Part shown: in pieces, positions 6,994 through 34,083 of the stretch
Layout of the letters: each line of letters begins with the position of its first letter
How positions within the stretch are numbered: position 1 is the stretch's first letter
Origin: Sphingobium arseniciresistens
GTDB taxonomy: Bacteria > Pseudomonadota > Alphaproteobacteria > Sphingomonadales > Sphingomonadaceae
Direction of reading: 5' to 3'
Assembly: GCA_029167225.1 (NCBI GenBank)
Contig: JARFNK010000020.1
Span: 32,984-96,983 of the forward strand
DNA length: 64,000 nucleotides
Notes under the pieces: generated by a model
Database searches by the model: none
Told to the model about the DNA's origin: nothing
The model's input: the letters and a program-made list of their open reading frames with translations, nothing else
Program-made: the position numbers and the translations under genes

Positions 6994-7178
6994 GGCCTGT
7001 CTCCCCGTACAGAATCCCGCACGGCACCGCGCACGGCATCGTCCACCGCCATCCGGTCGGGCGTGCCCTCATAGGCACCCAGCCGCTCGGCAAGGCGTTC
7101 GCGGAAGCCGGCCTCGTCAAAGCCGCGCCCGACGAGGCGGATGGCGTCGATCCGCACGATGGTCCGCCGCCGGCTCAT
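6990..7178 (-). CDS. Small conserved-position protein between ATPase and DUF4157 genes
   Basis: A 62-aa basic protein, MSRRRTIVRIDAIRLVGRGF at the N-terminus, ending in a helical acidic/basic stretch. The start ATG overlaps the ATPase stop (ATGA) and the stop overlaps the DUF4157 start, so it is almost certainly translated as part of the operon. I do not recognise a family. The phase-locked overlaps on both sides and its place directly before the DUF4157 gene suggest a chaperone or adaptor for that protein; this is inference. Confidence 0.65.
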   Translation of the reverse strand: MSRRRTIVRIDAIRLVGRGFDEAGFRERLAERLGAYEGTPDRMAVDDAVRGAVRDSVRGDRP

Positions 7179-17530: not shown

Positions 17531-20509
17531 CTACATGCGGAAGTTGACACCCACCGTCACTGTTCGGCCGATGCGTGTCTGGAACAGCGTATCCTGGCGC
17601 TGGCTGTCGATGTAGAGGCGATTTTCCTCGTCGGTGAGGTTGGTGGCCTCGACGATGATCTTGAGCCGGTCCGTGATGTTGTACGAGGCCGACGCGTCGA
17701 CATAGAGCGTCGAGTCATTGCCCTGAAGGTCGCTGCCGGGCGACGCGGGAATGCCGCGAATGAAATTGTCGCGCCAGTTCGCCGTGCCACGGATGCTGAA
17801 TTTCTCATCCTCATAATAGAGCGTGCCGGACGCCGTATTCTTCGACAGGCCGACAAGGTCCGCCGTCGTCGTCACGGTCGGGACACCGCCGACACTGGCA
17901 AGGACATATTGGATCTTCGACGTCACATGGGTGTAGTTGGCCAGCGCGCCGAGATTGCCCAGGAAGCCGTCGATGAAGTCGAAGGGCACCTGCGCGTTGA
18001 CCTCGATCCCCTTGAGCGGACCGCCCGGCGTGTTGAATGGCTGCGACACCGTGAACAGTTCGGTCGGCAGGGTGTTGCTGTTTTCCAGCAGCGCGTCCGG
18101 CAGGCCCAGTTGGTTGAACGGCATCTGCGTGCTCACCGTCTGGATATAGGTGCCGATATCCTTGTAGAAATAGGCGGCCGAGAGCAGCGAGCCCGGACGG
18201 AAATACCATTCGACCGCCGCGTCGAAGGTCTTGGCGCGGATCGGCTGCAGGAACGGGTTGTTGACATTGCCGACACGGGTCACGGGATTGACGCCGCTGG
18301 TCGGGGTGAGCAGGCCCAGTTCCGGCCGTGCCATCACCTTGGCACCGGAGAAGCGCAGCAGGACATTGGTGATCGGCTCGATCACGATGTTGGCCGACGG
18401 CAGCCAATCGTCATAGTGACGGTTCGTCACCGCATATTGCCCGACCAGATTGGTGGGCGAGGTCGTGCCAGCCGGCGGTGCGACGGCGATATAGCCCGAC
18501 GCCATCTGGTCCGTCCGCACATAACGCACGCCTGCGTCGCCGCGCACCTCGACACCCAGCAGCTGGCCGAAGTCAAACGTGCCCATGATATAGGCGCTCT
18601 TCACATCCTCGCGGACGCGGCCACGGCCGCCGCCGCATTCGGTGCCGCAATAGCGGACATCGTCGAAGCCGAAGGTATCGGCCCATTTGTCAGGGTCGAT
18701 CGCCGCCCAGCTGGCCGGCGCACCATTGCCCCACAGCTTGTCGACACCAGTGATCTGGCGGGTGATCGAGGCCAGCGTCGTGCCGGCCGGGAGCGCCCGC
18801 ACGACGGTATCCGCATTATAAGGCCGCAGGAATGTCGTCGTGAAATCGCTCTGGCGGAACTGCGTGCCCGCCTTCAGCACGATGCCATCCGACACCGTCC
18901 AGGCGAAATTGACCTCGCCGGTGAAGTTCTTGGTCACGTTCTTGGACGGCTTGCCCTGATAGCTGAAGCCGCCCAGCACGGTGCCGTCGGCAAGCCCCGG
19001 CGCGTAAGTGAAGTTCGCCGGGTTCGACACGTCGAAACCGAAGCCGATCCTGGGCGTGCTGCCACCGTCGCGGAAGTCGATGGAGAAGCCGTCGGCGTCG
19101 ATCACGTCCATGAAAGTCTGCAGACGCTTCTTGCCGTCCCAGATCGACCGGTTCATGCCGACCAGCGCCGTCACCTCCAGATTGTCGGTAAAGCGGTGCT
19201 TGAAGTTGAAGTTCGCCTGCTTGAAGGTCGAAACGAAATGGTCGACCAGCCCTTCCGAGCGCACGTCGACGCCATCGAACAGGCCATAGACCAGCGAGCC
19301 GTTTTCATCGAATTCCACGTCGCGCACGGACACCATCGGCTGGCCGTTGTTCGCCACCGAGCGCGCGAAGGAGAGGCCCGCGATATAATTATCGCGCCGC
19401 GTCACGTCGAACCGGGAATAGAGCATGTCGAGCGAGATGTCGGTGTCGTCATCGGGCTGGAACTGCAGCGTCAGCGATCCGCCGATACGCTCCTGATCCT
19501 GCTCCGAATTCAGGTAGCGGGGGATGCGCGGGAAGAAGGCGCCGCTGCCCGGTGTGTTCGGCAGGTCGTCCCTGCGCAGGGCGGCAATGGCCTGATAGGC
19601 TGCCAGCGATCCGGTGCGAGGATTGCCGGTGCTGCAGTTCGCGGCGTCCGTTCCCTTCACGGCACTGACAGCCGGGTTGACCGGCGCGTAGCCGAGCGGC
19701 GAGCAGAACAGGCCGTTGGTATTCGCCGACAGGATATCGACGCCCGAATAGCCGACCTCGCGAATGTTGCGCTTCTGATAGGCGAGCGAGGCAAGGATGC
19801 CGAAACGGCCATCGCCGAACTTCTTCGAGATCAGCATCGACGCACGCGGATCGACCTTCTTGGACAGTTCGTTCCACACGCCACGCGCCGTCGTGGTGAA
19901 GACGAAATCCTCCTTCTGGCTGAGCGGCTTGGGCGCACTCAGATCCACGGTCGCGCCCAGCGAGCCCTCCTCGACATCGGCAGAGGGCGTCTTGCGCACG
20001 GCCAGGGCGGAAAAGATTTCCGTCGGGAAGACGTTGAAGTCGAAGCTGCGGCCGTTGTTGCCTGCGCCATAGATGTCCGAAGAACCTGTCTGCGCACTGC
20101 CTTCCATGCCGTTGATGCGAACACGGGTGAAGCCGGCGCCAAGGCCGCGAACGGAGATATTGCGTCCTTCGCCGCCGTCGCCGCGTGCCAGCGCGACACC
20201 GGGAATGCGCTGCATGGATTCCGCCAGGTTGGAATCGGGGAACTTGCCGATGTCCTCGGCAACGATGCTGTCGATCGCCGCGGCTTCAAGGCGCTTCTGG
20301 TTGAGCGCGCTGCTCAGCGAGGCGCGAAAGCCGGTGACGACGATATCCTGCTCGTCGGCGGGTGTTTCTGCCGAGGCCTGCGTCGGCGGCGCGGAAGTGG
20401 GAGATGCTGGTGCCTGTGCGGTCGCCGATGTCGCGATACTCATCGCGGAAATCATTGCGAGCGACGAAACTCCGTAAAAAGCGCACGGAATCATTCTGTG
20501 TCGAAGCAT
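17531..20509 (-). CDS. TonB-dependent receptor (Caulobacter/sphingomonad type)
   Basis: A 992-aa outer-membrane receptor. A signal peptide (LAMISAMSIATSATAQA) is followed by a Ser/Pro linker and a TonB-box-like segment DEQDIVVTGFRASLSSALNQ. The plug domain has FPDSNLAESMQRIPGVALAR and GRNISVRGLGAGFTRVRING. The beta-barrel ends in an aromatic-type terminal residue pattern (VTVGVNFRM). It belongs to the large oligosaccharide-uptake receptors of sphingomonads. The position between GH53/GH43 and SGNH/PL22 suggests uptake of pectin-derived oligosaccharides. A 1017-codon open frame on the opposite strand is only its shadow. Confidence 0.93.
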   Translation of the reverse strand: MLRHRMIPCAFYGVSSLAMISAMSIATSATAQAPASPTSAPPTQASAETPADEQDIVVTGFRASLSSALNQKRLEAAAIDSIVAEDIGKFPDSNLAESMQRIPGVALARGDGGEGRNISVRGLGAGFTRVRINGMEGSAQTGSSDIYGAGNNGRSFDFNVFPTEIFSALAVRKTPSADVEEGSLGATVDLSAPKPLSQKEDFVFTTTARGVWNELSKKVDPRASMLISKKFGDGRFGILASLAYQKRNIREVGYSGVDILSANTNGLFCSPLGYAPVNPAVSAVKGTDAANCSTGNPRTGSLAAYQAIAALRRDDLPNTPGSGAFFPRIPRYLNSEQDQERIGGSLTLQFQPDDDTDISLDMLYSRFDVTRRDNYIAGLSFARSVANNGQPMVSVRDVEFDENGSLVYGLFDGVDVRSEGLVDHFVSTFKQANFNFKHRFTDNLEVTALVGMNRSIWDGKKRLQTFMDVIDADGFSIDFRDGGSTPRIGFGFDVSNPANFTYAPGLADGTVLGGFSYQGKPSKNVTKNFTGEVNFAWTVSDGIVLKAGTQFRQSDFTTTFLRPYNADTVVRALPAGTTLASITRQITGVDKLWGNGAPASWAAIDPDKWADTFGFDDVRYCGTECGGGRGRVREDVKSAYIMGTFDFGQLLGVEVRGDAGVRYVRTDQMASGYIAVAPPAGTTSPTNLVGQYAVTNRHYDDWLPSANIVIEPITNVLLRFSGAKVMARPELGLLTPTSGVNPVTRVGNVNNPFLQPIRAKTFDAAVEWYFRPGSLLSAAYFYKDIGTYIQTVSTQMPFNQLGLPDALLENSNTLPTELFTVSQPFNTPGGPLKGIEVNAQVPFDFIDGFLGNLGALANYTHVTSKIQYVLASVGGVPTVTTTADLVGLSKNTASGTLYYEDEKFSIRGTANWRDNFIRGIPASPGSDLQGNDSTLYVDASASYNITDRLKIIVEATNLTDEENRLYIDSQRQDTLFQTRIGRTVTVGVNFRM

Positions 20510-23462: not shown

Positions 23463-24383
23463 ATGGTTGAACGGAAGGCCCCGGAGGAAATATCAGCGTC
23501 CTCGCACCCCGCCCTGTCGCGCGAAGTGCTCGACCTGTTCGACAAATATGTCCATGGCGCAATCAGCCGGCGCGGGTTCCTGGACCAATGCGCACTCTAT
23601 GCCGGCAGCACTGCAGCCGCAGGCACCCTCCTCGCGTTTCTCAGCCCCGATTTCGCCCGCGCCCAGGTGATCGCCCCGAGTGACCGCCGCATTGCCATAT
23701 CCAGCGTGGACATCGCCTCGCCGCAGGGCTCCGGCACCATCCGCGCCTATGTCGCCAAGCCGGCCGGCACGTCGACCAGCAAGCGCAAGCCGGTGGTGCT
23801 TGTCATCCATGAAAATCGCGGATTGAACCCGCATATCGAGGATATCACGCGCCGGCTGGCCGTCGATGGCTTTATCGCCGTCGCACCCGACGCGCTGACC
23901 GCGCTTGGCGGCTATCCCGGCGACGAGGACAGCGCGCGCACCCTGTTCGGCAAGCTGGACCAGACGAAGATCACCGAGGATTTCGTGGCTGCGGCGCATT
24001 ATGCGCAAGCGCTGCCTGACGGGAACGGGAAGCTGGGTGCCGTCGGCTTCTGCTACGGTGGCGGCATGGTGAATATGCTGGCCACCCGCATCCCTACGCT
24101 TCGTGCCGGCGTTCCCTTTTACGGCGCGCCCGCGCCTCTGGCGGGCGTCCCGGCGATCAAGGCCGAACTGCTGATACAATTTGCCGGCAATGACACGCGA
24201 ATCAATGGCATGTGGCCCGATTATGAGACCGCATTGAAGAAGGTCGGTGTCCGTTTCCAGGCCCATATTTATGAAAATGTCGAACATGGGTTCAACAACG
24301 ACACGACGCCGCGCTTCAACAAGGACGCGGCTACGCTCGCCTGGAAAAGGACTTTGGCCTTGTTCAAGCGGACGCTGGCATGA
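23463..24383 (+). CDS. Tat-exported dienelactone hydrolase family protein
   Basis: A 306-aa alpha/beta hydrolase. A twin-arginine motif in HGAISRRGFLDQCALYAGST precedes a hydrophobic stretch and a FARAQ-type cleavage site. The catalytic set of the DLH family is intact: E117 (VIHENRG), C197 (GFCYGGG), D244 (AGNDTRIN) and H275 (VEHGF). Such periplasmic DLH-like proteins hydrolyse small esters or lactones of unknown identity. It stands alone and is transcribed toward two terminator-like hairpins. The ATG follows AGGAGCGATCATC. Confidence 0.88.
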   Translation: MVERKAPEEISASSHPALSREVLDLFDKYVHGAISRRGFLDQCALYAGSTAAAGTLLAFLSPDFARAQVIAPSDRRIAISSVDIASPQGSGTIRAYVAKPAGTSTSKRKPVVLVIHENRGLNPHIEDITRRLAVDGFIAVAPDALTALGGYPGDEDSARTLFGKLDQTKITEDFVAAAHYAQALPDGNGKLGAVGFCYGGGMVNMLATRIPTLRAGVPFYGAPAPLAGVPAIKAELLIQFAGNDTRINGMWPDYETALKKVGVRFQAHIYENVEHGFNNDTTPRFNKDAATLAWKRTLALFKRTLA

Positions 24384-24581
24384 GGCCAGGCGTGATCCGC
24401 CGGCGCGCCATTCGGATGGGATCGTCGCGTCAGGGCAGCTTGCCAACACGGCCGAAAATCAGCTGAAACAGCAAGAAATCCGGCAAAACATCTGCAGATC
24501 GACCTCCACATAATTCCGTATGCGTGACGATGGTCACGCGCTCGCCCGGCCGAATCAGTTAATGTGTCTGTGCGACCCGAG

Positions 24582-24610
24582 GGGAATCAGACACTCCTGA
24601 TTTCCTTTTT
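24582..24610 (+). terminator. Intrinsic terminator downstream of the DLH gene
   Basis: GGGAATCAG pairs with CTGATTTCC (9 pairs including one G-U) around a 6-nt loop, followed by TTTTT. This is a classic rho-independent terminator on the plus strand. Confidence 0.7.
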
Positions 24611-24614
24611 CCTT

Positions 24615-24642
24615 GGCCCAGCAGCTTTCGAGTTGCTGGGCC
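24615..24642 (+). terminator. Second tandem hairpin with U-rich tail
   Basis: GGCCCAGCA pairs with TGCTGGGCC around a 10-nt loop and is followed by ATTTTGTTTTC. It lies only 5 nt after the preceding terminator. Either tandem terminators or the 3' end of a small RNA that starts between 24384 and 24580. Confidence 0.6.
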
Positions 24643-24738
24643 ATTTTGTTTTCAACGGCCTTTCCAGCGTCATGGTTCACTGTATGTAGCTGAGAATCAG
24701 TGTTGCAACGGGCACCTGATTGCCTTTGGGGGGCTAAC

Positions 24739-25392
24739 TTGCTGGAAGCGGAACGGCTGGCCGTTATCAAAACCGTTTTTTCCTGCGACCACGACAGTGC
24801 CGCGGCCCTTGGCGCCGTGGTGAAAGAAGTCGTCTTCCCCAACAAGAGCACGGTTGCCCATCAAGGCCACGCGACCCAGCATTGCTGGCTGGTCGTGGAC
24901 GGAACCGCGCAGGCCCGGATCATCTCGACAGACGGCCAGGAAGCGCTGCTCGCGACCTATGGGCCGGGAGAGGTATTCGGCAGTTATCCAGAACCCTCGC
25001 TCCTGCGGGCCGGCATTGTGGCGATCGGCTCCCTCCGCCTGCTCGCCATCGAAACGGTGACGCTGGTCGAACTCGCGCGCCAGCATGCGGATATCGCGTG
25101 CGGCCTTTCCGTGCTGTTCGCGAGGCAACTCGACATCGTTCTCGATCGCATGGCCGCGCGCACGACCCTGACGGCGACCGGACGCATCTATGCCGAGTTG
25201 CTTCGAATGGCCGATGAGACCGGGACGATTTCCCCGCCACCGGTTCTGTCCGCCTTGGCTCTCAACGTACACACGACACGGGAAACGACATCGCGTGCCA
25301 TCGCCCATCTCGTGCGACGCGGCATCGTCCGTCGGTCCGACGCTGCGCTGGAAATCACCTCGCCCCGGTTATTGGCTGAACTGATCACCTGA
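24739..25392 (+). CDS. Crp/Fnr-family transcriptional regulator
   Basis: A 217-aa protein if started at the TTG at 24739 (GGGGGG 7-8 nt upstream); another TTG at 24700 adds 13 residues. The N-terminal ~110 residues form a cNMP-binding-like beta-roll (VVFPNKSTVAHQGHATQHCW, YGPGEVFGSYP). The C-terminal winged helix carries LALNVHTTRETTSRAIAHLV, the usual recognition helix. No Cys cluster for an Fe-S centre is seen, so it is not FNR. It converges with the TPR gene and their ends overlap by 24 bases. Targets unknown. Confidence 0.85.
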   Translation: MLEAERLAVIKTVFSCDHDSAAALGAVVKEVVFPNKSTVAHQGHATQHCWLVVDGTAQARIISTDGQEALLATYGPGEVFGSYPEPSLLRAGIVAIGSLRLLAIETVTLVELARQHADIACGLSVLFARQLDIVLDRMAARTTLTATGRIYAELLRMADETGTISPPPVLSALALNVHTTRETTSRAIAHLVRRGIVRRSDAALEITSPRLLAELIT

Positions 25393-26922
25393 GGTCACGT
25401 CCGCGAAAAGCCCGAAGACGGGCATATCCCCGGCCGAGGTGCAGATATTGCCCATGGGCTGCACATTGGCCGCCGGCAGATGGAGCGCCATGGCGAGTGC
25501 CGCGCTTTCACTGACCGCGATGGCTCCGGCCAGACCGGCAGAAGCGATAAACCCCACCCGCTCCGCCTGGATATGCTGCTCGCTCGTCGAGGGAACGGCG
25601 CGGTAGTCGATACCCAGCCGCACACCGGGTTGCTTCGTCATGATCGCGGAGGCCGTGGCGGCGCAGTCCATCAGCGTCTCAAAGCCGAAAATAGCGCTGT
25701 TATCCTGCATCCCGAGCCATCGACCGGAACTTTCCTCCCCCATTCCATCCGACACTGCCTCGGGAACCGCGAGCAAGGCCAGCGGCTGCGTGGGAGGAGG
25801 CAGGGCGGAGCGCGCGTCGTTGCTCCTGCTGACCGGTACGCGTACCGTCTCGAACACCAGCCCATCCCAGATCGCATCACTGGAGGATGTTTCGGTTTCG
25901 CCCTCGCACGGGATGCGCAGGGCACAGGGGAAAGACTGGAGACGCCGGCTTTCCTGAATGGCAAGGCCCATCGCCGCTTCCCGGGCAACGACGACCGATG
26001 CTTCACTGAGCGGATGCCAGTCGTCAAGAATGAGCACCGACGCGGCTTGATCCATCAGGTCATGAAATTGCGTGACCCAGGCGTCACCGAAAGGCTGCAC
26101 CGACAGCTCGCAAAACAACTCCGCCGGGCACGGCAGGACGACATGGAGCTGCCCGCCCACCTGAACGGCAGCCTGCGCAATCAGGATGTCCGCTCCTGCA
26201 GCCAGCGCGCCGATCGCATAGCTTGGACCGATCGCCCGAACCTGCGCGTCAATCACTGAGCCCGCCGCAGCATCGTCGATCGCGATCCCCATGATGCCTT
26301 CGAAATGCATGCAGGGCGGTGGACGATAGGCGGCCAGCCAATCCTTGGAACAGCCCTTTTCCTGAAGAACCAGCCCGAATTGCCGCAGCGTCGAAGCATG
26401 ATCTTCCCACGCTTCTGGTTGGCAGCGAATAGCGACGCCGAGCGCGGCTTCCGCTTCGGTGATCCGGTCGAGCAGCAGCAATGCTTCCGCACGGGTCGCA
26501 TGCAGCCAATAGTCCGTTTCCGGCGCATAATCGCCGCTGTCGAGAAGCGCCAATGTCTCTGTCGCGAGACTTCGCGACTGCTCCTCCCGCCCGGCGAGGA
26601 AGGCAAGGGTCGCGGCATTGATGAGCGGATAGGTCGCACGCGAGAGTTCCGATGCGCGCGTATAGGCGGCAATGGCCTCGTTCAGCAGCTTTTCCCTGGC
26701 AGCGCCCGTCTCCTGCGCCGCACGATCCTTCAGCAGACGGCCATGGACGGTCAGGATGTCCGGGTCTTCCGACCCGGACAGAAAGCCCCCGCCATCGAAC
26801 AGAGCCCAGGCGCGTTCCAGAGCACCAGCCCGCGCCAGACGTGTAATGTTATTCAACTGTGCTCTCGTCATCTTGGCACTCTGTTCGACATATCGACGCG
26901 TCACTCCAGAGAAATCAGCCAT
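25369..26922 (-). CDS. TPR protein with weak class III cyclase-like C-terminus, TIR-operon partner
   Basis: A 517-aa cytoplasmic protein starting MADFSGVTRRYVEQSAKMTR; its start lies 8 nt inside the end of the preceding gene. Residues about 15-190 are helical TPR-like repeats (AIAAYTRASELSRATYPLIN, ALLLLDRITEAEAALGVAIR), similar to the 'TRAFs-binding' repeat proteins found beside bacterial TIR genes. The middle (about 200-330) is alpha/beta. The last 100 residues (GFETLMDCAATASAIM, VRLGIDYRAVPS, GAIAVSESAALAMALHLP) resemble a degenerate nucleotide-cyclase fold, but metal-binding aspartates are not evident. Possible role: sensor or scaffold for TIR signalling. Confidence 0.7.
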   Translation of the reverse strand: MADFSGVTRRYVEQSAKMTRAQLNNITRLARAGALERAWALFDGGGFLSGSEDPDILTVHGRLLKDRAAQETGAAREKLLNEAIAAYTRASELSRATYPLINAATLAFLAGREEQSRSLATETLALLDSGDYAPETDYWLHATRAEALLLLDRITEAEAALGVAIRCQPEAWEDHASTLRQFGLVLQEKGCSKDWLAAYRPPPCMHFEGIMGIAIDDAAAGSVIDAQVRAIGPSYAIGALAAGADILIAQAAVQVGGQLHVVLPCPAELFCELSVQPFGDAWVTQFHDLMDQAASVLILDDWHPLSEASVVVAREAAMGLAIQESRRLQSFPCALRIPCEGETETSSSDAIWDGLVFETVRVPVSRSNDARSALPPPTQPLALLAVPEAVSDGMGEESSGRWLGMQDNSAIFGFETLMDCAATASAIMTKQPGVRLGIDYRAVPSTSEQHIQAERVGFIASAGLAGAIAVSESAALAMALHLPAANVQPMGNICTSAGDMPVFGLFADVTSGDQFSQ

Positions 26923-27511
26923 CCGGCCCGGAATTCGTACCGTCCGGGTCGATCGCGAGCACGACTCCGCCCTTGACGCCATGTGCATAGGCCGCGCTGA
27001 TATAAATGTTAAAGATGAATCCCTGCGTTTCGCCTTCCTTCAGCGGCGCGCCGGTTATGCCATTGCGCAGGTAATTGCGGCAACGCAGTGCGGGCAGGTC
27101 GCATACCACGACCTTTTCCAGGCCATAGAAGCTCTTGTTGGGGACGACCGGCGCGGGCGGCGGGGGCAAGGACGAGTTTTCCTTCTTTTCCAAAAACCAG
27201 ATGGGGTCGGTGTCGGCGCCGTCGTGGAAGGAATAACCAGGAGAATCGAGGACAATGGTGAAGTAGCTCTTATATTTCGCGAAGGTGATACCCTCGAAGC
27301 CATAGCCCTGAAATTCAGGATACTGCTCCGGGTTGTCGGACTGAGCCAGCTTGAACAGCGCTTCTTCCGTCTGCTTCAGGCCCAGCTTCTCGATGCAGGA
27401 AAACCAGCGGCTGACGTTCCAGACGCCGTCCTTCACGCCGACATAGAGAAGGGTCACATAGTTGAATGCCGCATCCGGCCCGATTGTTTGAATGCTGTCT
27501 CCAAAGGGCAT
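26915..27511 (-). CDS. 198-aa protein of unknown family in the TIR operon
   Basis: Soluble 198-aa protein beginning MPFGDSIQTIGPDAAFNYVT. It has no signal peptide or membrane segment. Notable features are aromatic-rich stretches (KYKSYFTIVLDSPGYSFHDG), a proline hinge SLPPPPAPVVP near residue 115, and a C-terminal FIFNIYISAAYAHGVKGGVV ending in an Asp/Gly-rich tail (IDPDGTNSGPDG). I recognise no family. It lies 22 nt after the TIR gene and its 3' end overlaps the TPR gene, so the three are co-translated. Confidence 0.75.
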   Translation of the reverse strand: MPFGDSIQTIGPDAAFNYVTLLYVGVKDGVWNVSRWFSCIEKLGLKQTEEALFKLAQSDNPEQYPEFQGYGFEGITFAKYKSYFTIVLDSPGYSFHDGADTDPIWFLEKKENSSLPPPPAPVVPNKSFYGLEKVVVCDLPALRCRNYLRNGITGAPLKEGETQGFIFNIYISAAYAHGVKGGVVLAIDPDGTNSGPDG

Positions 27512-27533
27512 TAAATTCTCCTTAGAAAGATCG

Positions 27534-29228
27534 TCAGTTCAGATGAGCGATTGCGTCCAACCGTCGGATGGTTTCAGCCTGGAACCCCGGTTCTGCCGCG
27601 GATGTCGAACCTGCCTCTATCATCAGGCCGCGCGCCAGGCCGGAAAGCCTGACAACTTCGGCCTTGTGCCGTAGCTTGGCGGCCACTTCGGCCGCATCCA
27701 CGACGACGCGCAGATTTTGTTCGAACCAGCGCTTATTGGCGGGATCCCGCCGTCGCAGCTGGGCAGCCTGTCCCTCCGCCGTCTTGAGCAAATCGGCAGC
27801 GACCGTGAAATCCTCGACTTCATATGCAATTCTCGCCAAGGCCCTGGTCGCTACCAACCTATCATAGGCGAGATCTCCGTTATCCGGATCTTCTTTGCTC
27901 AAAGGTTCAAGTAATTTCAGTTGCATGAGCCGATGCCAGCGCGCGGCTCCATAATTGTGCAGGTCAAATTGCACATCGGAAATGCGGGCGTGACGTTCCG
28001 CAACTTCCATGCGGATATTGAGTGAAGCAGGATCGACAGCCTGTGCTCGCTGGAACCAGTAGAGCGATCGCTCATAATCCTTTAGCGCGTCAGCATATTT
28101 CGCCTGAAATTTGCGTTTGACCGATCCCATGTTGCTGAGCGCATAACCCACCTCCACAAAGCTGCGGGCCTTGTGCGGCTGGATCTTGATCAGTTGGAGC
28201 GCCCAGTAGAGATAGCCCTGATAGTGTTTCAGCGCATCTTCGGGCCGCTCCACGAGTTGGTCGACATAGCCGATCCAGAATTCGCTCTGCGAGTGGACGA
28301 AGATCCGCTCGGCATCTTCTGGATCGATGTCCAGCAGGGTCGCCGTCGTGCGATGCGCTTCCCTGAACTTGCTGAGCGCACCCGACAGATCGCCCCGTGC
28401 AATGTCATCCTCGCCCATGGCGTGCAGGATGCGCGCGCGTCGTTCCAGGCTGGGCACCGGCAGTCGCTCCAGGTCGCCCTGCGCACGGTAGTAATTCATG
28501 GCCTGCATGTTCGCCGCGGCGAGGGCATCGAGCCGCCCCACGCTGCGCAGCCTTTGTCGCAAATCGGTCAGCATGAATTCAACCAGTCCTTCAGCTTCAG
28601 AGCGTTGCTTCTCAGCTTCCCGCTGCGCTTGCCAGGCAAATACAGATAGCGTCAGGAGGCATAGCATGATGACCAGAGAGGCCACCGTGATAGCGGTCAC
28701 GCGGCGTATCCGCCGCTGCGCATCGCGCTGTACCAGCCGGTCGAGACCCACGCCGGTCAGCCCGGCAACCAGCTTCAACACGCCAAGCCGGGGACCATCC
28801 CCCTTGGCCCGCAAGTCGGCCGCCAGCGGCTCTCGCCCATCCTTCAGGGCGGCCGGAAACGCATCTTCCGGTTCACCCTCGACCAGCGCCGCCAGCACCG
28901 GCCGGTCGGGATGGAGTTGACGGAAGAGACGGATTTCCTTGTCGACCCATGAGGACGCTGCGGCAGAGGGCGAACATAGCACGATCAGCGCCTGCGACCG
29001 GGAAATCCCTGCCCTCACTGCCTCGGAAAGGTCGGCCGCCGCAGGCAGTTCATCCTGGTCACGAAAAATCGGCCCCAGCTTTCGGGAGCCTTGACCGTCG
29101 CTCAACCCTTTGGGCAGCCGATAGCCTTCCAGCTTGCGATGCAAGCGGCGCGCCTTGCCGACATCCTTGTGATTATAGCTGAGGAAGGCAGCATAGGGCG
29201 CCTCCGATTGCCTGTCGTCCGCCGTCAC
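27534..29228 (-). CDS. Membrane-anchored TIR domain protein with TPR C-terminus
   Basis: A 564-aa protein. Residues 10-150 form a TIR domain: AFLSYNHKD strand A, FRDQDELPAAADLSEAV loop, and SPSAAASSWVDKEI, where E98 matches the catalytic glutamate of NAD-cleaving TIRs (WVHKEI in SARM1). A single transmembrane helix spans about 178-200 (TAITVASLVIMLCLLTLSVF). It is followed by a coiled stretch and the motif EFMLTDLRQRLRSVGRLDAL, common in bacterial signalling TPR proteins, then TPR-like helices to the end. TIR should face the cytoplasm if the N-terminus is inside. First gene of a three-gene operon; likely conflict or stress signalling, function unproven. Confidence 0.88.
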   Translation of the reverse strand: MTADDRQSEAPYAAFLSYNHKDVGKARRLHRKLEGYRLPKGLSDGQGSRKLGPIFRDQDELPAAADLSEAVRAGISRSQALIVLCSPSAAASSWVDKEIRLFRQLHPDRPVLAALVEGEPEDAFPAALKDGREPLAADLRAKGDGPRLGVLKLVAGLTGVGLDRLVQRDAQRRIRRVTAITVASLVIMLCLLTLSVFAWQAQREAEKQRSEAEGLVEFMLTDLRQRLRSVGRLDALAAANMQAMNYYRAQGDLERLPVPSLERRARILHAMGEDDIARGDLSGALSKFREAHRTTATLLDIDPEDAERIFVHSQSEFWIGYVDQLVERPEDALKHYQGYLYWALQLIKIQPHKARSFVEVGYALSNMGSVKRKFQAKYADALKDYERSLYWFQRAQAVDPASLNIRMEVAERHARISDVQFDLHNYGAARWHRLMQLKLLEPLSKEDPDNGDLAYDRLVATRALARIAYEVEDFTVAADLLKTAEGQAAQLRRRDPANKRWFEQNLRVVVDAAEVAAKLRHKAEVVRLSGLARGLMIEAGSTSAAEPGFQAETIRRLDAIAHLN

Positions 29229-29485
29229 CCCAAAACTGCTCCCCGCGTCCCCAGCCCTTTCCTTAGCAAGCCAGCGCGCCTCCGCCTATCCGGGACTGCG
29301 GATCGGCAAACAGTTGGCATCCAGAAAGCCCGTCAATCACCGACGCATGTCTGTATCATACAATGCGATCCCGCATTCATGCCCTAGAGTGCGGCCAAAC
29401 AAGACTGGCGTCGCACTTCGTCTTGCATGTCGGGTTCCGGCAATTTCACCGGAAGCCTGGCTGCATAACCGACCTGAGGGAAGGG
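29229..29485. promoter_or_regulatory. Divergent promoter region, TIR operon and amidase-like gene
   Basis: About 260 bases between the TIR gene (minus) and the short plus-strand frame at 29486. It must contain both promoters. No strong inverted repeat is seen. Confidence 0.4.
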
Positions 29486-29617
29486 ATGACCGTGACACCG
29501 GATTGGGCCGCAAATCCCGACATGTTCGTACGCAGTGCCGGAGCATTCTGCGTGATCACCGGCTTTCCGGACGCCCCTCATCACCCCCACCATCACGAGA
29601 GAGGTAAAACAGCATGA
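29486..29617 (+). CDS. Possible 43-aa coupled small protein
   Basis: ATG at 29486 directly after GAGGGAAGG, a strong ribosome site, and a stop overlapping the start of the next gene (ATGA at 29614-29617). The product begins MTVTPDWAANPDMFVRSAGA and ends in a His-rich stretch. The overlap is what a translationally coupled leader would show, but no family is recognised. Confidence 0.4.
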   Translation: MTVTPDWAANPDMFVRSAGAFCVITGFPDAPHHPHHHERGKTA

Positions 29618-30315
29618 CAATCCGTGAGATACAGCAGGCCCTGGCGAATGCGGGATTTGTGACCGGGCCGGTCGACGGCATCTGGGGACGCCAGACGCAG
29701 GCTGCGGTACGCGCCTTCCAGAGCAAGCATGGGCTCAACGCCGACGGCATCATCGGCCCACAGACGCTGGCCGCGCTCTTCCCCACGGCATCCGCTCCAA
29801 CCAGCGGACTTGATGACCCGCAACTGGTCTGGTTTCAGGAAGCCCGGCGGTTGCTGGGGACGCGCGAAAAGCCGGGCGTCGGCAACAACCCCACGATCCT
29901 GGATTGGGCGGACGATCAGGGTATCCAGTATAAGAGCGACGACATTCCCTGGTGCGGCCTGTTTGTCGGCCATTGCATTGCCGCGACCCTGAGCAACGAA
30001 CCAACGCCTTCCGGCCTGCTGCGGGCACGGGCATGGGAACGGTTCGGCATCGCCAGCCCTGCGACGCCCGGCACGGTTCTGGTTTTCTGGCGCAAATCCA
30101 TCGGCAGCGGCCTCGGCCATGTCGGCTTCTATGCCGGGGAGGACGATTCAGCCTATCGCGTGCTCGGCGGCAATCAGTCGGACAGCGTTTCGCTCGCATG
30201 GATCGCCAAGGATCGGCTGGTCGCGGCCCGCTGGCCAGCCACCGTCCCCCCTCACCCACCCAAGCCCGTAAAGCTCTCCAGCCGCACGGAAGGCCTGTCG
30301 TGGAATGAAGCCTGA
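29614..30315 (+). CDS. Leaderless peptidoglycan-binding / CHAP-like amidase protein
   Basis: A 233-aa protein. Residues 1-57 are a PG_binding_1 domain (IREIQQALANAGFVTGPVDG, TQAAVRAFQSKHGLNADGII). Residues about 70-210 match the TIGR02594/NlpC-P60-CHAP-like family, with catalytic C114 (DIPWCGLFVGHC), H169 (GLGHVGFYAG) and a polar residue in VLGGNQSDSVS. There is no signal peptide, like endolysins and some toxins. A RBS GAGAGG precedes the ATG. No holin is nearby, and no phage genes. It is divergent from the TIR operon. Confidence 0.85.
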   Translation: MTIREIQQALANAGFVTGPVDGIWGRQTQAAVRAFQSKHGLNADGIIGPQTLAALFPTASAPTSGLDDPQLVWFQEARRLLGTREKPGVGNNPTILDWADDQGIQYKSDDIPWCGLFVGHCIAATLSNEPTPSGLLRARAWERFGIASPATPGTVLVFWRKSIGSGLGHVGFYAGEDDSAYRVLGGNQSDSVSLAWIAKDRLVAARWPATVPPHPPKPVKLSSRTEGLSWNEA

Positions 30316-30695
30316 AAGGGATGCTCCGGCGGAGCGGGGCCAACACAGGCCCCGCTCCGACGAGCGATCGCCGCGCATCAAAACATGGCGAGGCGAGGCT
30401 GGGGAGAGGTTGAACCCGCCCCACAGCCACATCGATGGCTGGAGCGGTATTCGCGACCAGCATGGGTGCTGGCTGAATCAAAGGCAAGAGAGCTGACCTG
30501 CCCTGCGAATGTCAGCCGGGGCCACGCACAATTGCGCGATGCCATATGCGCCCGTCGAAACCGTACACGGGATTATATTCTACCTTTGACTGGCTCTCAT
30601 CCAGCGGCTAGGTAAATTGGGCAGCCCATTTCAAAAGGAAGCGACTGCAGGCAACGGGAGCCGCCGGATGCCGTAGGAGAAGGAGTAGAACCACG
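30316..30695 (+). promoter_or_regulatory. Intergenic region before the quinoprotein gene
   Basis: About 380 bases with no convincing gene. The last 40 bases hold the ribosome site GGAGAAGGAG for the quinoprotein. Nothing else recognisable. Confidence 0.4.
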
Positions 30696-32549
30696 ATGCG
30701 ACTGTTGTTCCCTTTGGGTTTGGCGGTTTTGCTCCCGGTAGCAGCGGCAATGGCGGACGGCCCCGCCTCCCCTCCTCAAAGCGCCAGTGCGCTGAGCGCC
30801 CGCGGCGCTCAAGTCTTCCAGACACGGTGCGCCATGTGCCACGAAAATCCCGTAGGGCGCACGCCCAGCCGGGCCTTCTTGCGCCAGACCCGCTCTCCCG
30901 AGTTCATCTTGAGTGCCCTGACGACAGGTGTGATGCGCGAGAATGCGGAGGGGTTGAGCCTTGATGACAAACGCGCCGTCGCAACCTATCTGATCGGTTT
31001 CCCGCCGGGAAGTTCCGCCTCGATCAACCCGGATGCCAACCGTTGCAAACTCCGCCCGGCGTCACTCACCCTCGATGGCCCGGCGTGGAATGGCTGGTCC
31101 GGCTCGGGAGTGACGAACGCACGATTTCAGCAAGATCCGGGATTTTCCGTCAAGGATCTGCCGCGTCTGAAGCTTAAATGGGCCTTCGCCTACCCCGGCG
31201 GCGTTGCAAACGAACCCACGGTCGTCGGCGACCACCTGTTTGTTTCCAGCATGACCGGCATCATGTTCGCACTTAACGCCAAGACCGGCTGCACCCAATG
31301 GTCGGTCAATTTGGGCGTGCCCGCGCGCGCGATGGCCTCGGTCGGCAAGCTTCCCTCGGGCAAGCCGGTCCTGTACACAACCGACTGGCATGGCAATGTC
31401 TATGCCCTCGACACCGATACGGGCGCGCAGATATGGAAAACGACGGTCGAGGATCATCGGGCCGTGCGCCTGACCGGATCGCCAACACTGTACCAGGGTC
31501 GGCTCTACGTGCCGGTCTCGTCCGGCGAAGAGGCCATCGCGCCCGACCCGCACTATCCCTGCTGCAGTTTTCGCGGCAGCCTGGTGGCGCTGGATGCGGC
31601 CAGCGGCAAAATTCTCTGGAAGACCTATACAATCGATGAAGCGCCCCGCCCACTGGAAGACGGGCACCGTTATGGACCATCGGGCGCAGCCGTCTGGATG
31701 GCGCCGACGGTCGATGCAAAACGCAAGGTTGTTTATATCGGGACCGGCGACGACTACAGCAATCCGGTGACGAAATCATCCGACGCGATCATCGCCATCG
31801 ACATGGACACGGGGGCGAAACGCTGGACCACCCAGATCATCGCCGGCGATACCTTCCAACTGGGCTGTGATGGAAAAGACCGCCATGTCAATTGTCCCAC
31901 CGGCGAGGTCGGGTCAGACTATGATTTCGGCTCCTCGGTCATCATCGCAAAGGCCAAGGATGGCAGTGACGTACTCGTGGCGACATCCAAGAGTTCGACA
32001 GTGTCCGGCCTGGATCCTGACACAGGCAAGGTCCTCTGGGAAAAGAGGCTGGGACGCGGAGGCGAACTGGGCGGCATCGAATGGGGGGCATCGACCGACG
32101 GCCATGTCATCTACGCACCCGTAGGAGACACCAGCAGGGATCCGTCGGCGATAGAGATCGCCAGAGGGTTTCCGGCCAAGCCTGGCGTACATGCCATCTC
32201 CGCCGATGGCCAGGTGCTCTGGTACGCACCGGCACCCCAGAAGCCGGTCTGCTCATGGGAGGGTTCATGCCGCAACGCCTTCACTGGCGCATCCGCCCTG
32301 ATACCCGGAGCGGTCTTCGCAGGCTCCTGGGACGGCCATGAACGTGCCTTCTCCACCGCCGACGGCAAGATATTGTGGGACTTCGACACCGGCCGGACAT
32401 TCGACGCGGTGAACGGCGCGCAGGCGTCCGGCGGCACGATCGACCATGGGGCCCAGGTGATTGCAGGCGGCATGCTCTATGTAAATTCCGGCGGACGGCA
32501 GGGGCATCCCGGCAACGCCCTGCTCGCATTTTCGATCGACGGTAAATAG
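30696..32549 (+). CDS. Cytochrome c-fused PQQ dehydrogenase, polyvinyl-alcohol-dehydrogenase-like
   Basis: A 617-aa periplasmic protein with a signal peptide (LFPLGLAVLLPVAAAMADG). An N-terminal cytochrome c domain has the heme motif CAMCH near residue 47. From about 130 to the end is a PQQ-type beta-propeller: ALNAKTGCTQWSVNL, ALDTDTGAQIWKTTV, ALDAASGKILWKTYT, GLDPDTGKVLWEKRL. An adjacent-Cys pair (YPCCSF) is present. The cytochrome-propeller order matches polyvinyl-alcohol dehydrogenase (cytochrome). It oxidises an alcohol and passes electrons to the respiratory chain. The real substrate is unknown; in this locus it may feed the CoA pathway. Confidence 0.85.
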   Translation: MRLLFPLGLAVLLPVAAAMADGPASPPQSASALSARGAQVFQTRCAMCHENPVGRTPSRAFLRQTRSPEFILSALTTGVMRENAEGLSLDDKRAVATYLIGFPPGSSASINPDANRCKLRPASLTLDGPAWNGWSGSGVTNARFQQDPGFSVKDLPRLKLKWAFAYPGGVANEPTVVGDHLFVSSMTGIMFALNAKTGCTQWSVNLGVPARAMASVGKLPSGKPVLYTTDWHGNVYALDTDTGAQIWKTTVEDHRAVRLTGSPTLYQGRLYVPVSSGEEAIAPDPHYPCCSFRGSLVALDAASGKILWKTYTIDEAPRPLEDGHRYGPSGAAVWMAPTVDAKRKVVYIGTGDDYSNPVTKSSDAIIAIDMDTGAKRWTTQIIAGDTFQLGCDGKDRHVNCPTGEVGSDYDFGSSVIIAKAKDGSDVLVATSKSSTVSGLDPDTGKVLWEKRLGRGGELGGIEWGASTDGHVIYAPVGDTSRDPSAIEIARGFPAKPGVHAISADGQVLWYAPAPQKPVCSWEGSCRNAFTGASALIPGAVFAGSWDGHERAFSTADGKILWDFDTGRTFDAVNGAQASGGTIDHGAQVIAGGMLYVNSGGRQGHPGNALLAFSIDGK

Positions 32550-32616: not shown

Positions 32617-34083
32617 ATGAATGTCACGCCCAGCCGGACCGACTGTCCGCCCGATCTCGCGATCGATCTTGCGCACTTTGCCTCCGGGCTTGATCCGACG
32701 ATATGCGATCCAGCGGTTGTCGATGCGGCCAAGGCCAACATCTTCGACACGCTGGCGTGCGCGCTGGCGGGCTCGTCGGCGAAGGCCGTGCCAGAGATCG
32801 TCGGACTGGTGCGAGACTGGGCCGGAGCACCCCAGGCAGACCTGATGGTGCTTGGCGGACGCTATCCGGCGCACCATGTCGCCTGGGCAAACAGCGTGAT
32901 GTGCCATGCGCGCGACTATGACGACACCCATGACGCGGCGATCCTGCATGCCGGGGTGTCGGTTGTCCCGGCGGCGCTCGCAGCCTGTCAGTTGCGTGGC
33001 GACGCCAGTGGCGCCGACATGATTGCAGGCGTAATCGCCGGGCTGGAAGTGATGTGCCGGCTCGGCACGGCGACCAAGCTCGACCTCATCGAAAGCGGCT
33101 TCATCTATTCATCGCTGATGGGCTATTTCGGCGCGACGGCCGCAGCTGGCCGTGCCCTTGCCCTCAGCAAGGCCGAGATGGCCCAGGCATTCGGCATCGT
33201 CTATTCGTCGGCGGCGGGCAATCATCAGGTCACCCGCGACGCCTCGCTGATGAAGCGGACCCAGCCCGGACTGGCCGCGCAGGCCGCGATCGTGGCGATA
33301 CAACTGGCGCGCAAGGGTATTCGCGGCGCGCAGAACGTGTTCGAAGGGGCGGACGGTTTCTTCCGGGTTTATCTCCGTGGCGAGGTCGATGGAGCGATGG
33401 TGCGCGCCGGACTGGGCGAACACTACGAAATGCTCAACCTCAGCTACAAACCCTATCCCTGTTGCCGCGACACCCATTCAGCGATCGACGCCATCCTGGC
33501 GCTGCGGGCAACACATGGCCGCGACCCGGCCGAAATCGACTTCATCAGTGTGGGAACCACAGCGGGCGGCTATCAGATGGTCTGCGTCCCCGAAGCAATT
33601 CGCCTGGCGCCTAAAACCATCGTCGAGGCACAGTTCAGCATTCCCTATACCGTTGCAGCGGCGTGGATCGACGGCCGTGTGGGGATTGGCCATTTTTCCG
33701 ACGAAGGCATGGGGCGGGAGGACATCCTCGCGCTCAGCGCCCGTGTACGGCCCTATATCGACGAGGAAATCGAGCGCGACTGGAGCCGGTTCGTCCCGCC
33801 CGCGAAGGTCACGATCCATTTCAGGGACGGATCTTTCGCGCACGGCCGGGTCGATTACGCCAAGGGCCATCCTGCAAACCCGATGACCCAGGCGGAATTC
33901 ATCGCGAAGGCGAGCGATTGCCTGACCTTTGCTGCCGAGGCCATGCCGCAGGACACGATTAGCACGCTCTTTGAGGCAATCGATGGCCTTGAACAGGCGC
34001 AAGCCGTCGATGCCGTGATTGCGGCGATGACCGGGACGCCCTGCCCTCCCGGTCCGGGTCGGCGCCTCCCGGCAACGGCATGA
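32617..34083 (+). CDS. MmgE/PrpD family protein 1
   Basis: A 488-aa protein with family motifs NIFDTLACALAG, then HARDYDDTHDAAILHAGVSV, GNHQVTRDASLMKRTQPGLA and LSYKPYPCCRDTHSAID. MmgE/PrpD enzymes dehydrate 2-methylcitrate or isomerise related tricarboxylates and iminosuccinate-type substrates; many have other, unknown substrates. It is closely similar in motif sequence to protein 3 at 49093. It starts 67 nt after the quinoprotein stop. The actual reaction cannot be read from the sequence. Confidence 0.85.
   Translation: MNVTPSRTDCPPDLAIDLAHFASGLDPTICDPAVVDAAKANIFDTLACALAGSSAKAVPEIVGLVRDWAGAPQADLMVLGGRYPAHHVAWANSVMCHARDYDDTHDAAILHAGVSVVPAALAACQLRGDASGADMIAGVIAGLEVMCRLGTATKLDLIESGFIYSSLMGYFGATAAAGRALALSKAEMAQAFGIVYSSAAGNHQVTRDASLMKRTQPGLAAQAAIVAIQLARKGIRGAQNVFEGADGFFRVYLRGEVDGAMVRAGLGEHYEMLNLSYKPYPCCRDTHSAIDAILALRATHGRDPAEIDFISVGTTAGGYQMVCVPEAIRLAPKTIVEAQFSIPYTVAAAWIDGRVGIGHFSDEGMGREDILALSARVRPYIDEEIERDWSRFVPPAKVTIHFRDGSFAHGRVDYAKGHPANPMTQAEFIAKASDCLTFAAEAMPQDTISTLFEAIDGLEQAQAVDAVIAAMTGTPCPPGPGRRLPATA

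Follow-up and report, generated by a model that had tools for sequence, protein, structure and literature searches.

A TIR-TM-TPR cassette of Sphingomonadales with an exchangeable TPR half and partner gene

Composition of the cassette

The locus lies within a 64,000-nucleotide stretch of Sphingobium arseniciresistens DNA (contig JARFNK010000020.1; hereafter the window), for which an initial annotation had proposed an operon of three genes. The open-reading-frame listing places this operon on the minus strand at 25369..29228 (Table 1), and in relatives the cassette comprises four genes, encoding a TIR-TM-TPR protein (gene 1), a small middle protein (gene 2), a protein with TPR-S, SLOG and degenerate class III cyclase domains (gene 3), and a Crp/Fnr regulator. 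Gene 1 was found upstream of gene 3 at 57 of 60 loci, and a Crp/Fnr gene adjoined gene 3, tail-to-tail, at 53 of 58. Of 396 genomes of the window's order, sampled without selection, 49 contained a gene 3 match of at least 300 bits and 43 of these carried gene 1 directly upstream, with the middle gene present between the two in the cassettes that were read, confirming that the proposed genes occur together across genomes.

Table 1 Features of the cassette, in window coordinates
Feature	Position	Strand	Basis or remark
Crp/Fnr regulator	24700..25392	+	PF00027 and PF13545 over cut-off; tail-to-tail with gene 3, 24-nt overlap
Gene 3, 517 aa	25369..26922	-	8-nt overlap with end of gene 2
Class III cyclase-like domain of gene 3, aa 376-508	25399..25797	-	Without catalytic Asp motifs
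SLOG-type Rossmann domain of gene 3, aa 201-366	25825..26322	-	Fold match
TPR-S domain of gene 3, aa 5-199	26326..26910	-	Pfam PF20308
Gene 2, middle protein, 198 aa	26915..27511	-	ORF; comparison with relatives; second half of exchangeable module
Start of conserved C-terminal tail, IDPD, aa 187-190	26942..26953	-	Middle-protein alignment
Gene 1, TIR-TM-TPR protein, 564 aa	27534..29228	-	ORF, Pfam, alignment of five cassettes
Variable TPR part, aa 291-564	27534..28358	-	Co-variation with middle gene in relatives; first half of exchangeable module
Constant juxtamembrane stretch, aa 206-290	28359..28613	-	Relatives: exchange boundary inside or just past stretch
Single transmembrane segment, aa 179-197	28638..28694	-	Hydropathy and charge count, N-side more positive (N-in)
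TIR domain, aa 15-140	28809..29186	-	PF13676 and PF08937 over cut-off
Glu98 codon	28935-28937	-	Invariant in 55/55 rows covering it

The gene 1 product had been described as an NADase-type TIR protein held in the membrane by one helix, and both features were borne out, with a TIR profile accompanied by the catalytic-type Glu98 in every relative covering that position (NADase activity being predicted) and with one predicted transmembrane segment. A sequence search of solved structures with the gene 1 protein alone returned no match, and the gene 1 profile matched designed TPRs only.

For the gene 3 product, the earlier description of TPR repeats followed by a degenerate nucleotide-binding-like C-terminus stands in that TPR-S and a degenerate cyclase-like domain are present, and has to be extended by the SLOG domain between them. 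PF20308 is exceeded on the window protein (46.9 against a cut-off of 27.6 bits), whose Pfam matches are TPR-S and MAP3K_TRAF_bd only, and TPR-S was found in all 44 aligned relatives at E values up to 0.01. Fold matches comprise SLOG, cyclase and ASK1-type TPR, and place the middle domain in the SLOG superfamily. Cyclases are among the Foldseek matches listed, at an rmsd of about 4-6 Å; those listed by VIA-align are mostly to the cyclase domain, and the absence of other folds there carries no meaning. A likeness to O-GlcNAc transferase and SPINDLY in the top Foldseek rows was rejected, as the rmsd of 17-21 Å over the whole alignment reflects a match of the TPR superhelix only. Neither the gene 3 protein alone nor its profile matched a solved structure by sequence.

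The middle protein had been assigned to no known family, which holds for the window protein, whose match to PF20301 (pNTSase1) reaches 16.6 bits against a cut-off of 25 and covers the C-terminal 41 residues only, but not for its relatives, 33 of 54 of which match PF20301 at E values up to 0.01. Matches of the middle-protein profile to solved structures were at chance level, and no stretch of the window fitted a codon pattern representing part of the tail.

The Crp/Fnr neighbour in the window has a phosphate-binding cassette without the Glu and without the Arg-Ser/Thr, and on the window's branch the cyclase motifs and the Crp pocket are both degenerate. Gene 3 retains the cyclase Asp motifs in ten cassettes from two other families of the order (f5 and f7), and in these same ten the Crp protein has a canonical cNMP pocket; by an alignment-based count, the pocket Glu is present in 10 of 10 cassettes with the Asp motifs versus 4 of 58 otherwise. 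On the gene 3 tree there is a single change of cyclase state, so that the association represents one event rather than ten. Because the ten cassettes keep both the Asp motifs and the canonical pocket, cNMP signalling may be the older output of the cassette, with loss likelier than gain on a tree that is unrooted.

Gene 3-like proteins occur patchily, in 85 of the 396 genomes, and the genes flanking the window's cassette are likewise patchy within the genus (9 and 3 of 31 genomes at 1e-60). Plasmid searches gave no match by DNA and one by protein, on a Novosphingobium megaplasmid where the protein is unannotated. Promoter and terminator signals at the locus were no more frequent than in shuffled sequence, repeats there are short and two-copy only, and no Rfam family was found within positions 24000-31000. 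An eCIS-type protein is encoded in the window about 18 kb from the cassette.

Exchange of the TPR half and the middle gene among relatives

Comparison among relatives resolves the cassette into constant arms, namely the TIR-TM (N-terminal) half of gene 1, gene 3 and the Crp/Fnr gene, and between them a variable module consisting of the C-terminal TPR part of gene 1 together with the middle gene. This was assessed in 18 pairs of loci with gene 3 (TPR and SLOG) identity of at least 75%. In 12 of them the middle genes are unrelated, and all 12 have TPR C-parts only 15-29% identical next to TIR domains 79-88% identical, while in the six pairs with related middle genes the TPR C-parts are 61-89% identical. 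The 12 swapped pairs, drawn from three clades, are not independent of one another. At the DNA level, blastn of five swapped pairs gave two homologous blocks with nothing between them, and one unswapped pair gave a single continuous block of 9.6 kb. On these alignments, the TPR half and the middle gene have been exchanged between related strains in several clades, mostly as one block.

One example is the genome pair L085/L094, with two homologous blocks, one of 3.4 kb at 94.7% identity and the other of 4.7 kb at 95.2%. In gene 1, residues 1-285 are 98% identical and residues 286-700 only 35%, gene 3 is 98% identical, and over the roughly 10 kb compared the two chromosomes differ mainly in this module. 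In another case, L034, the best match for both TIR and gene 3 is L032, and the best match for the middle protein (score ratio 0.27) and the TPR C-part (33%) is L040.

Across loci, similarity of the middle proteins follows that of the gene 1 TPR-N, with a partial rank correlation of 0.44, and that of TPR-C, at 0.24 (a value reached by 0 of 2000 Mantel permutations), and not that of the TIR domain (-0.06) or the gene 3 domains (-0.10 to 0.10). Agreement of nearest matches is weak overall: among 47 loci, the best middle and TPR-C matches coincide in 22, and the best middle and gene 3 matches in 21. Coupling also has exceptions: L085/L094 keeps a middle protein 76% identical despite its 35% TPR half, L118/L123 keeps the TPR part (similarity 0.77) with a differing middle protein (0.26), and L052/L057 combines a middle protein at 44% with a TPR-C at 72%. 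No swap was seen within the window's own clade (the window and L015-L018) or within a 12-locus clade, each of which has one middle type.

The module is also low in GC. The GC content is 57.0% in the window's gene 2 and about 56.5% in the variable TPR part, and at all 45 loci compared the middle gene is lower in GC than either constant arm. Additional middle genes, together with a second but truncated copy of TIR-TM in L069, resemble orphan modules.

A recognition module and its alternatives

These observations led us to propose, with about even confidence and from sequence comparison, that the cassette is a TIR-based signalling system in which a polymorphic recognition module, a receptor/partner pair, is mounted on a TIR chassis; the exchange pattern suggests that the specificity of a recognition system changes through exchange of parts. 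In the best-supported step, the gene 1 TPR half and the middle protein encoded beside it would be a cognate pair, binding either one another or a shared target. A change in the pair, brought about by loss, by a non-self partner that does not match or by the product of an invader, would then cause the membrane-anchored TIR to assemble and process NAD+, and the TPR-S/SLOG protein would read an NAD-derived nucleotide or the TIR itself, as the ThsA SLOG reads the ThsB product in Thoeris. Output via the neighbouring Crp/Fnr regulator, NAD+ depletion or both would be the last and least supported step. Against a cognate pair, adjacent DNA can be exchanged jointly without any interaction of the products. 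There is also a paradox of topology: the TPR half should be periplasmic, as hydropathy and charge count predict an N-in orientation for 53 of the 55 gene 1 proteins examined, yet an N-terminal hydrophobicity test was positive for just 2 of 48 middle proteins. A more specific and quite speculative form of the proposal, which we put forward tentatively, is a bacterial counterpart of Toll-like receptors, in which a single-pass membrane protein would join a cytosolic TIR to an exchangeable TPR ectodomain outside the cytoplasm, a small partner or ligand would be exchanged along with this ectodomain, the conserved C-terminal tail of that partner (IDPxxxNPP or GGIHPP type) would dock on a constant part, and specificity would be renewed by block swap rather than by point mutation.

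Antiphage abortive infection, in which the module would be a sensor of phage proteins exchanged in an arms race, the TIR would kill via NAD+ depletion, and gene 3 and Crp would set the threshold, is possible though on balance doubtful. It is consistent with the conserved TIR Glu, the TPR-S, pNTSase1 and SLOG assignments, the patchy presence in the order and the low GC of the variable module. Against it, only 2 of 97 flanking proteins matched PADLOC at 1e-15, a level that gives no defence-island signal around the cassettes, and the commonest flank families (among the best 25 of 74) are metabolic. A scan of viral contigs confirmed no relative, phage records gave no match, and abortive infection alone leaves the joint change of middle gene and TPR half unexplained.

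We consider it unlikely that the cassette serves kin or self-recognition of a toxin-antitoxin type, with an immunity-like middle protein inhibiting the variable TPR half and the TIR triggered by mismatch between neighbours or after gene exchange. A constant N-part, a variable C-part, an adjoining variable partner and block exchange together match the polymorphic toxin/immunity layout, and the orphan-like modules point the same way. However, the TIR domain lies in the constant part, whereas polymorphic toxins have the toxin in the variable part, and no delivery part was noticed in passing beside the cassettes.

A role for the middle protein as a nucleotide synthetase, in keeping with the Pfam name pNTSase1, that makes a signal read by the gene 3 protein seems improbable. 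Besides the family matches among relatives, this idea draws on genome G019, where the same cassette position holds a PF20301 member over the cut-off (147 bits), and on the 17 invariant columns within the PF20301-type group of 15. Over all 54 aligned middle proteins, however, Asp188-Pro189 are the sole invariant residues, and the conserved tail is absent from 4 of 59; this counts against a synthetase, since enzymes sharing a reaction should retain more. The window protein itself is under the Pfam cut-off, and its group aligns with the PF20301-type group in the C-terminal third only (hhalign 3.3%). Equally improbable is an ordinary stress-response or regulatory system with a fast-drifting receptor ectodomain, which the Crp/Fnr partner and the metabolic surroundings would suit, but against which stand the sharp blocks of divergence and, in four closely related pairs without a swap, a dN/dS of 0.07-0.25 for the middle gene and the TPR half, never exceeding that of the highest other segment.

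Relation to known systems

The proposal that the system is undescribed stands in part. PADLOC assigned no specific system to the window's three proteins, returning a single weak, TIR-only match (SAVED_TIR, E 7e-4), PHROGs and NCBIfam gave nothing useful for any of the three genes, and a literature search, which left most subscription papers outside, had nothing on this cassette among the matches listed. TPR-S and pNTSase1, however, are already named Pfam families, reportedly introduced by Burroughs and Aravind in 2020 among predicted prokaryotic immune systems. The cassette resembles those predicted TIR/TPR-S/pNTSase systems in that TPR-S defines gene 3 throughout the relatives, PF20301 members occur among the middle genes and a TIR gene adjoins; the module exchange, the C-terminal tail, the SLOG and degenerate cyclase domains on the TPR-S protein and the Crp partner come from this analysis.

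Thoeris consists of the TIR protein ThsB and the SIR2-SLOG protein ThsA, whose SLOG domain reads the ThsB product (PMC9503650). The cassette likewise has a TIR protein beside a separate protein with a SLOG-type domain, but its TIR is membrane-anchored with TPRs, its SLOG protein carries TPR-S and a cyclase-like domain in place of SIR2 or another known ThsA effector domain, and it has an extra variable partner and a Crp gene; none of the PADLOC Thoeris models matched the window proteins at E values up to 1. With regard to CBASS, no CD-NTase was among the Pfam or PADLOC matches of the three proteins.

Pycsar pairs a class III cyclase with a cNMP-gated effector. The likeness lies in the class III cyclase fold, the TIR and membrane parts, and the ten cassettes with Asp motifs and a canonical Crp pocket. 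The window's cyclase-like domain, however, is catalytically incomplete, and no cNMP-binding domain is among the Pfam matches of the TIR protein, this domain residing on the separate Crp regulator with its degenerate pocket. The animal ASK1 signalosome differs in that no kinase domain is among the Pfam matches.

In a study of diversity-generating retroelements (DGRs), putative sensor parts of bacterial conflict systems with TIR and similar effectors are diversified by these error-prone elements (PMC10907252), whereas the cassette changes by block exchange of half a gene and its partner.

Polymorphic toxin/immunity and fungal incompatibility loci combine a constant part, a variable part and an adjoining variable partner. 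The first of these layouts is seen in relatives of the window, with exceptions, and not within its own clade; both differ in that the cassette's TIR lies in the constant part and no delivery system was identified.

What triggers bacterial TIR systems, which are known to act as NADases or to make signals, is often unknown. Here, the sequences point to the site where the trigger would be read, as the part that changes is the TPR half with its adjoining partner gene. Natural swapped and unswapped pairs exist, including two related chromosomes that differ mainly in the module over the stretch compared, and the ten cassettes with intact motifs offer a route to the role of the gene 3 protein. Should the two partners prove to be receptor and ligand, this would be a case of receptors diversifying through block exchange within bacterial innate immunity or self-recognition, and the TIR-TM-ectodomain layout would invite comparison with Toll-like receptors.

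Organization and spread of the cassette

Gene 1 (encoding a TIR-TM-TPR protein), gene 2 (the middle gene) and gene 3 (TPR-S, SLOG and a degenerate class III cyclase-like part) are closely packed on one strand, with 8 nt common to gene 3 and the end of gene 2, and the three-gene operon of the initial annotation is thus present where it was placed; with the adjoining Crp/Fnr gene, they form what is here called the cassette. In gene 1, two Pfam TIR models scored above cut-off and a single hydrophobic segment has positive charges toward the TIR side, in keeping with the membrane-anchored TIR first described, but the TPRs of the C-terminal region were matched by Pfam only below cut-off. The TPR repeats claimed for gene 3 were recovered as a Pfam TPR-S match, alongside MAP3K_TRAF_bd. 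Elsewhere in the window, an eCIS_core protein and an AAA ATPase are perhaps part of a contractile-injection-type cluster.

Features of the cassette and of other parts of the window
Feature	Position	Strand	Remark
Gene 1, 564 aa	29228-27534	minus	ORF call
Gene 2 (middle), 198 aa	27511-26915	minus	ORF call
Gene 3, 517 aa	26922-25369	minus	ORF call
Crp/Fnr gene	24700-25392	plus	tail to tail with gene 3, 24 nt overlap
Peptidoglycan-binding TIGR02594-family ORF	29614-30315	plus	head to head with gene 1
eCIS_core (PF13699) protein and AAA ATPase	4819-9433	minus	4819-6993, adjoining 7175-9433
Large TonB-dependent receptor	17531-20509	minus	first of two
Large TonB-dependent receptor	57730-60579	minus	second of two
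MmgE/PrpD paralogue	32617-34083		first of two
MmgE/PrpD paralogue	49093-50586		second of two

The four-gene cassette is conserved. A non-exhaustive scan of one genome per species in 84,980 species, with a pair of peptide patterns drawn from aligned gene 3 proteins, returned 62 loci, mostly from Sphingomonadales and also from Caulobacter, Brevundimonas, Asticcacaulis, Phenylobacterium, some Alphaproteobacteria or Proteobacteria and one Nevskia. On contigs long enough to show it, gene 1 lay upstream of gene 3 in 57 of 60 loci, and in 53 of 58 a Crp/Fnr gene followed downstream within 700 bp, tail to tail in 50 of the 53. Of 396 genomes taken from the order without selection, 85 encoded gene 3-like proteins (E up to 1e-20) and 112 encoded gene 1-like proteins. 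The expected co-occurrence held for strong gene 3 hits (at least 300 bits), 43 of 49 having gene 1 directly upstream with 138-2017 bp between, but was rarer for weaker ones (at least 6/21 at 200-300 bits and at least 1/16 below 200 bits), and 50 of 100 examined gene 1 rows had no gene 3 beside them. The window's middle protein had a relative in 4 of the 396 genomes, itself counted. Among 60 genomes drawn from the class, seven held gene 3-like proteins, only the window's own exceeding 300 bits. One genome, G019, was the sole carrier of a hit above cut-off to the Pfam family PF20301 (pNTSase1), both among 385 genomes from the class and among 299 from the phylum. Four further loci (L081-L084) encode TIR-TM-TPR proteins of 678-724 aa with partner genes absent from the surrounding 13 kb by profile search.

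Exchange of the gene 1 TPR half and the middle gene

Across 45 loci, median pairwise identity was 16% in the middle protein, against 44% in gene 1 and 36% in gene 3. Eighteen close pairs of loci were defined by at least 75% identity in the TPR and SLOG parts of gene 3. Twelve of these had unrelated middle genes, with TIR domains 79-88% identical and the C-terminal part of the gene 1 TPR region (TPR-C) only 15-29% identical, while in the six with related middle genes TPR-C was 61-89% identical; lowering the gene 3 limit to 60% gave 19 pairs at 15-29% against 35 at 42-89%. In five such swapped pairs, blastn returned one block from at or near the gene 1 start to gene 1 nt 720-980, no similarity from there through the middle gene, and another block beginning within 30 nt of the gene 3 start, whereas the unswapped pair L033/L039 gave a single 9.6-kb block from gene 1 nt 125 to past the cassette. 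The sharpest case, L085/L094, compares two genomes of the same genus and has flanking blocks of 3.4 kb (94.7%) and 4.7 kb (95.2%), with identities of 278/285 over gene 1 aa 1-285, 146/414 over aa 286-700, 130/171 in the middle protein and 548/559 in gene 3. The swapped pairs stem from three clades.

When all other domains were held constant, in 1081 pairs drawn from 47 loci, similarity between middle proteins correlated with TPR-N (0.44) and TPR-C (0.24, reached by none of 2000 Mantel permutations) and not with the TIR, juxtamembrane or gene 3 domains (-0.10 to 0.10). The nearest match agreed with that of the middle protein in 22/47 loci for TPR-C, 21/47 for gene 3 and 16/47 for the TIR; agreement is hardly higher for TPR-C than for gene 3, which counts against the module. 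Coupling of TPR and middle parts is loose in L085/L094, L118/L123 and L052/L057. Among close pairs of a further sample, L108/L109, L110/L111 and L124/L125 retain both parts, L090/L093 differ in both and L096/L097 are intermediate. On the gene 3 tree, 21-26 changes were needed for 18-27 middle types (set at three thresholds), which reflect divergence as well as exchange; as labelled, the five-locus clade of the window and a twelve-locus clade each hold a single type.

GC content was lower in the middle gene than in both constant arms in 45/45 loci, and in the TPR part in 42/45 (means: TIR-TM 63.9, TPR 59.2, middle 54.1, gene 3 64.9), with the same dip in the window (64.0, 56.5, 57.0 and 63.0). 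Exchange as one block could follow from mere adjacency of the DNA; however, the exchange boundary falls inside gene 1, and it is this that speaks for a functional unit. Rapid point substitution does not account for the blocks: in four close unswapped pairs dN/dS was 0.04-0.25 across all segments, and neither the TPR part nor the middle gene went above the highest value of the other segments. In L069 (4514-8964), two middle genes flank an additional gene 1 copy that is cut down to its TIR-TM and juxtamembrane parts and has a disturbed TIR frame; it resembles a remnant of module exchange.

Families at the middle position

Middle proteins range from about 145 to 306 aa. The window's copy, initially assigned to no known family, indeed scored below the PF20301 cut-off (16.6 bits against 25), but 33 of 54 aligned middle proteins match this family (E up to 0.01). 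The only invariant positions of that alignment are Asp188-Pro189. The fuller list has 59 middle genes, of which 50 fit the tail pattern, L044 wrongly so; of the nine non-fitting tails, six (L015-L018 and both L059 copies) are the same Asp-Pro tail with another following residue. After the tails were read, 55 of 59 had Asp-Pro, and four (L028, L032, L036 and L044) had a GGIHPP-like tail instead. The distance of the tail Asp from the C-terminus is 10-43 residues, with a median of 13 (by a script count that includes the L044 false fit). In profile comparisons, the window's group joined the L033/L039/L042 group over nearly its full length (99.6%) and aligned with the PF20301-type group in the C-terminal third only (3.3%); the latter has its tail in common with a third group (79%), and nothing in common was found between it and the GGIHPP group. 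The middle gene is thus a slot that several families occupy, the majority of them sharing one kind of tail. Four loci carry two different middle genes beside one cassette (L013, L059, L069 and L093), in tandem in all except L069.

Signalling parts, possible function and known systems

Glu98 of the TIR was invariant in all 55 rows covering that position, consistent with the NADase-type glutamate initially proposed. The Asp motifs and an Asn are active-site residues of cyclases; both Asp motifs were kept in 22 of 85 gene 3 proteins tested, and the usual Asn was Ala, Ser or Thr in those inspected. The motifs were present in 7/7 gene 3 rows with neither a same-strand gene 1 nor an adjoining Crp gene (L103 lies at a contig end). 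Five such TPR/SLOG/cyclase proteins of 591-807 aa (L079, L080, L086, L089 and L103) are likely relatives of the gene 3 ancestor. Across 68 loci with scored gene 3 and Crp, the phosphate-binding Glu and Arg-Ser/Thr of Crp occurred together in 10/10 loci with the Asp motifs and in 0/58 without, Glu alone occurring in four. The cyclase state changed once on the tree, and the association therefore counts as a single evolutionary event, with a difference at either end of the presumed cNMP link. This favours, though it does not prove, an earlier link between gene 3 and Crp through a cyclic nucleotide that no longer operates in the window's branch.

An N-in orientation was predicted for 53/55 gene 1 proteins tested, so the TPR half should be periplasmic. 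Only 2/48 middle proteins passed an N-terminal hydrophobicity test, and those of L049 and L074 look exported only when judged by eye; a topology problem remains between the two predictions. Antiphage defence is plausible from the cassette parts, without support from context: PADLOC matched 2 of 97 flanking proteins, the commonest flank families were metabolic, the scan of viral contigs confirmed no relative, phage records gave no match to the cassette, and one megaplasmid carries a match. We read the variable module as a pair of polymorphic recognition parts carried by a TIR chassis, with phages, neighbours or the cell itself as candidate targets.

PADLOC gave no specific system hit for the cassette proteins, bearing out the earlier view that no named defence system fits. 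The TPR-S and pNTSase1 families reportedly originate with Burroughs and Aravind in 2020, who are said to have predicted that TPR-S reads NAD-derived signals. A passage of a 2021 paper cites that work for NAD-derived signals from TIR domains (PMC8195603); passages elsewhere describe the TIR-to-SLOG logic of Thoeris (PMC9503650) and DGR-diversified sensors in conflict systems (PMC10907252). The proposal of an undescribed system holds for the cassette and the exchange of its module, on which nothing appeared among the literature matches listed, but not for its parts, TPR-S and pNTSase1 being established Pfam families, and we read the cassette as belonging to an already predicted kind of system.
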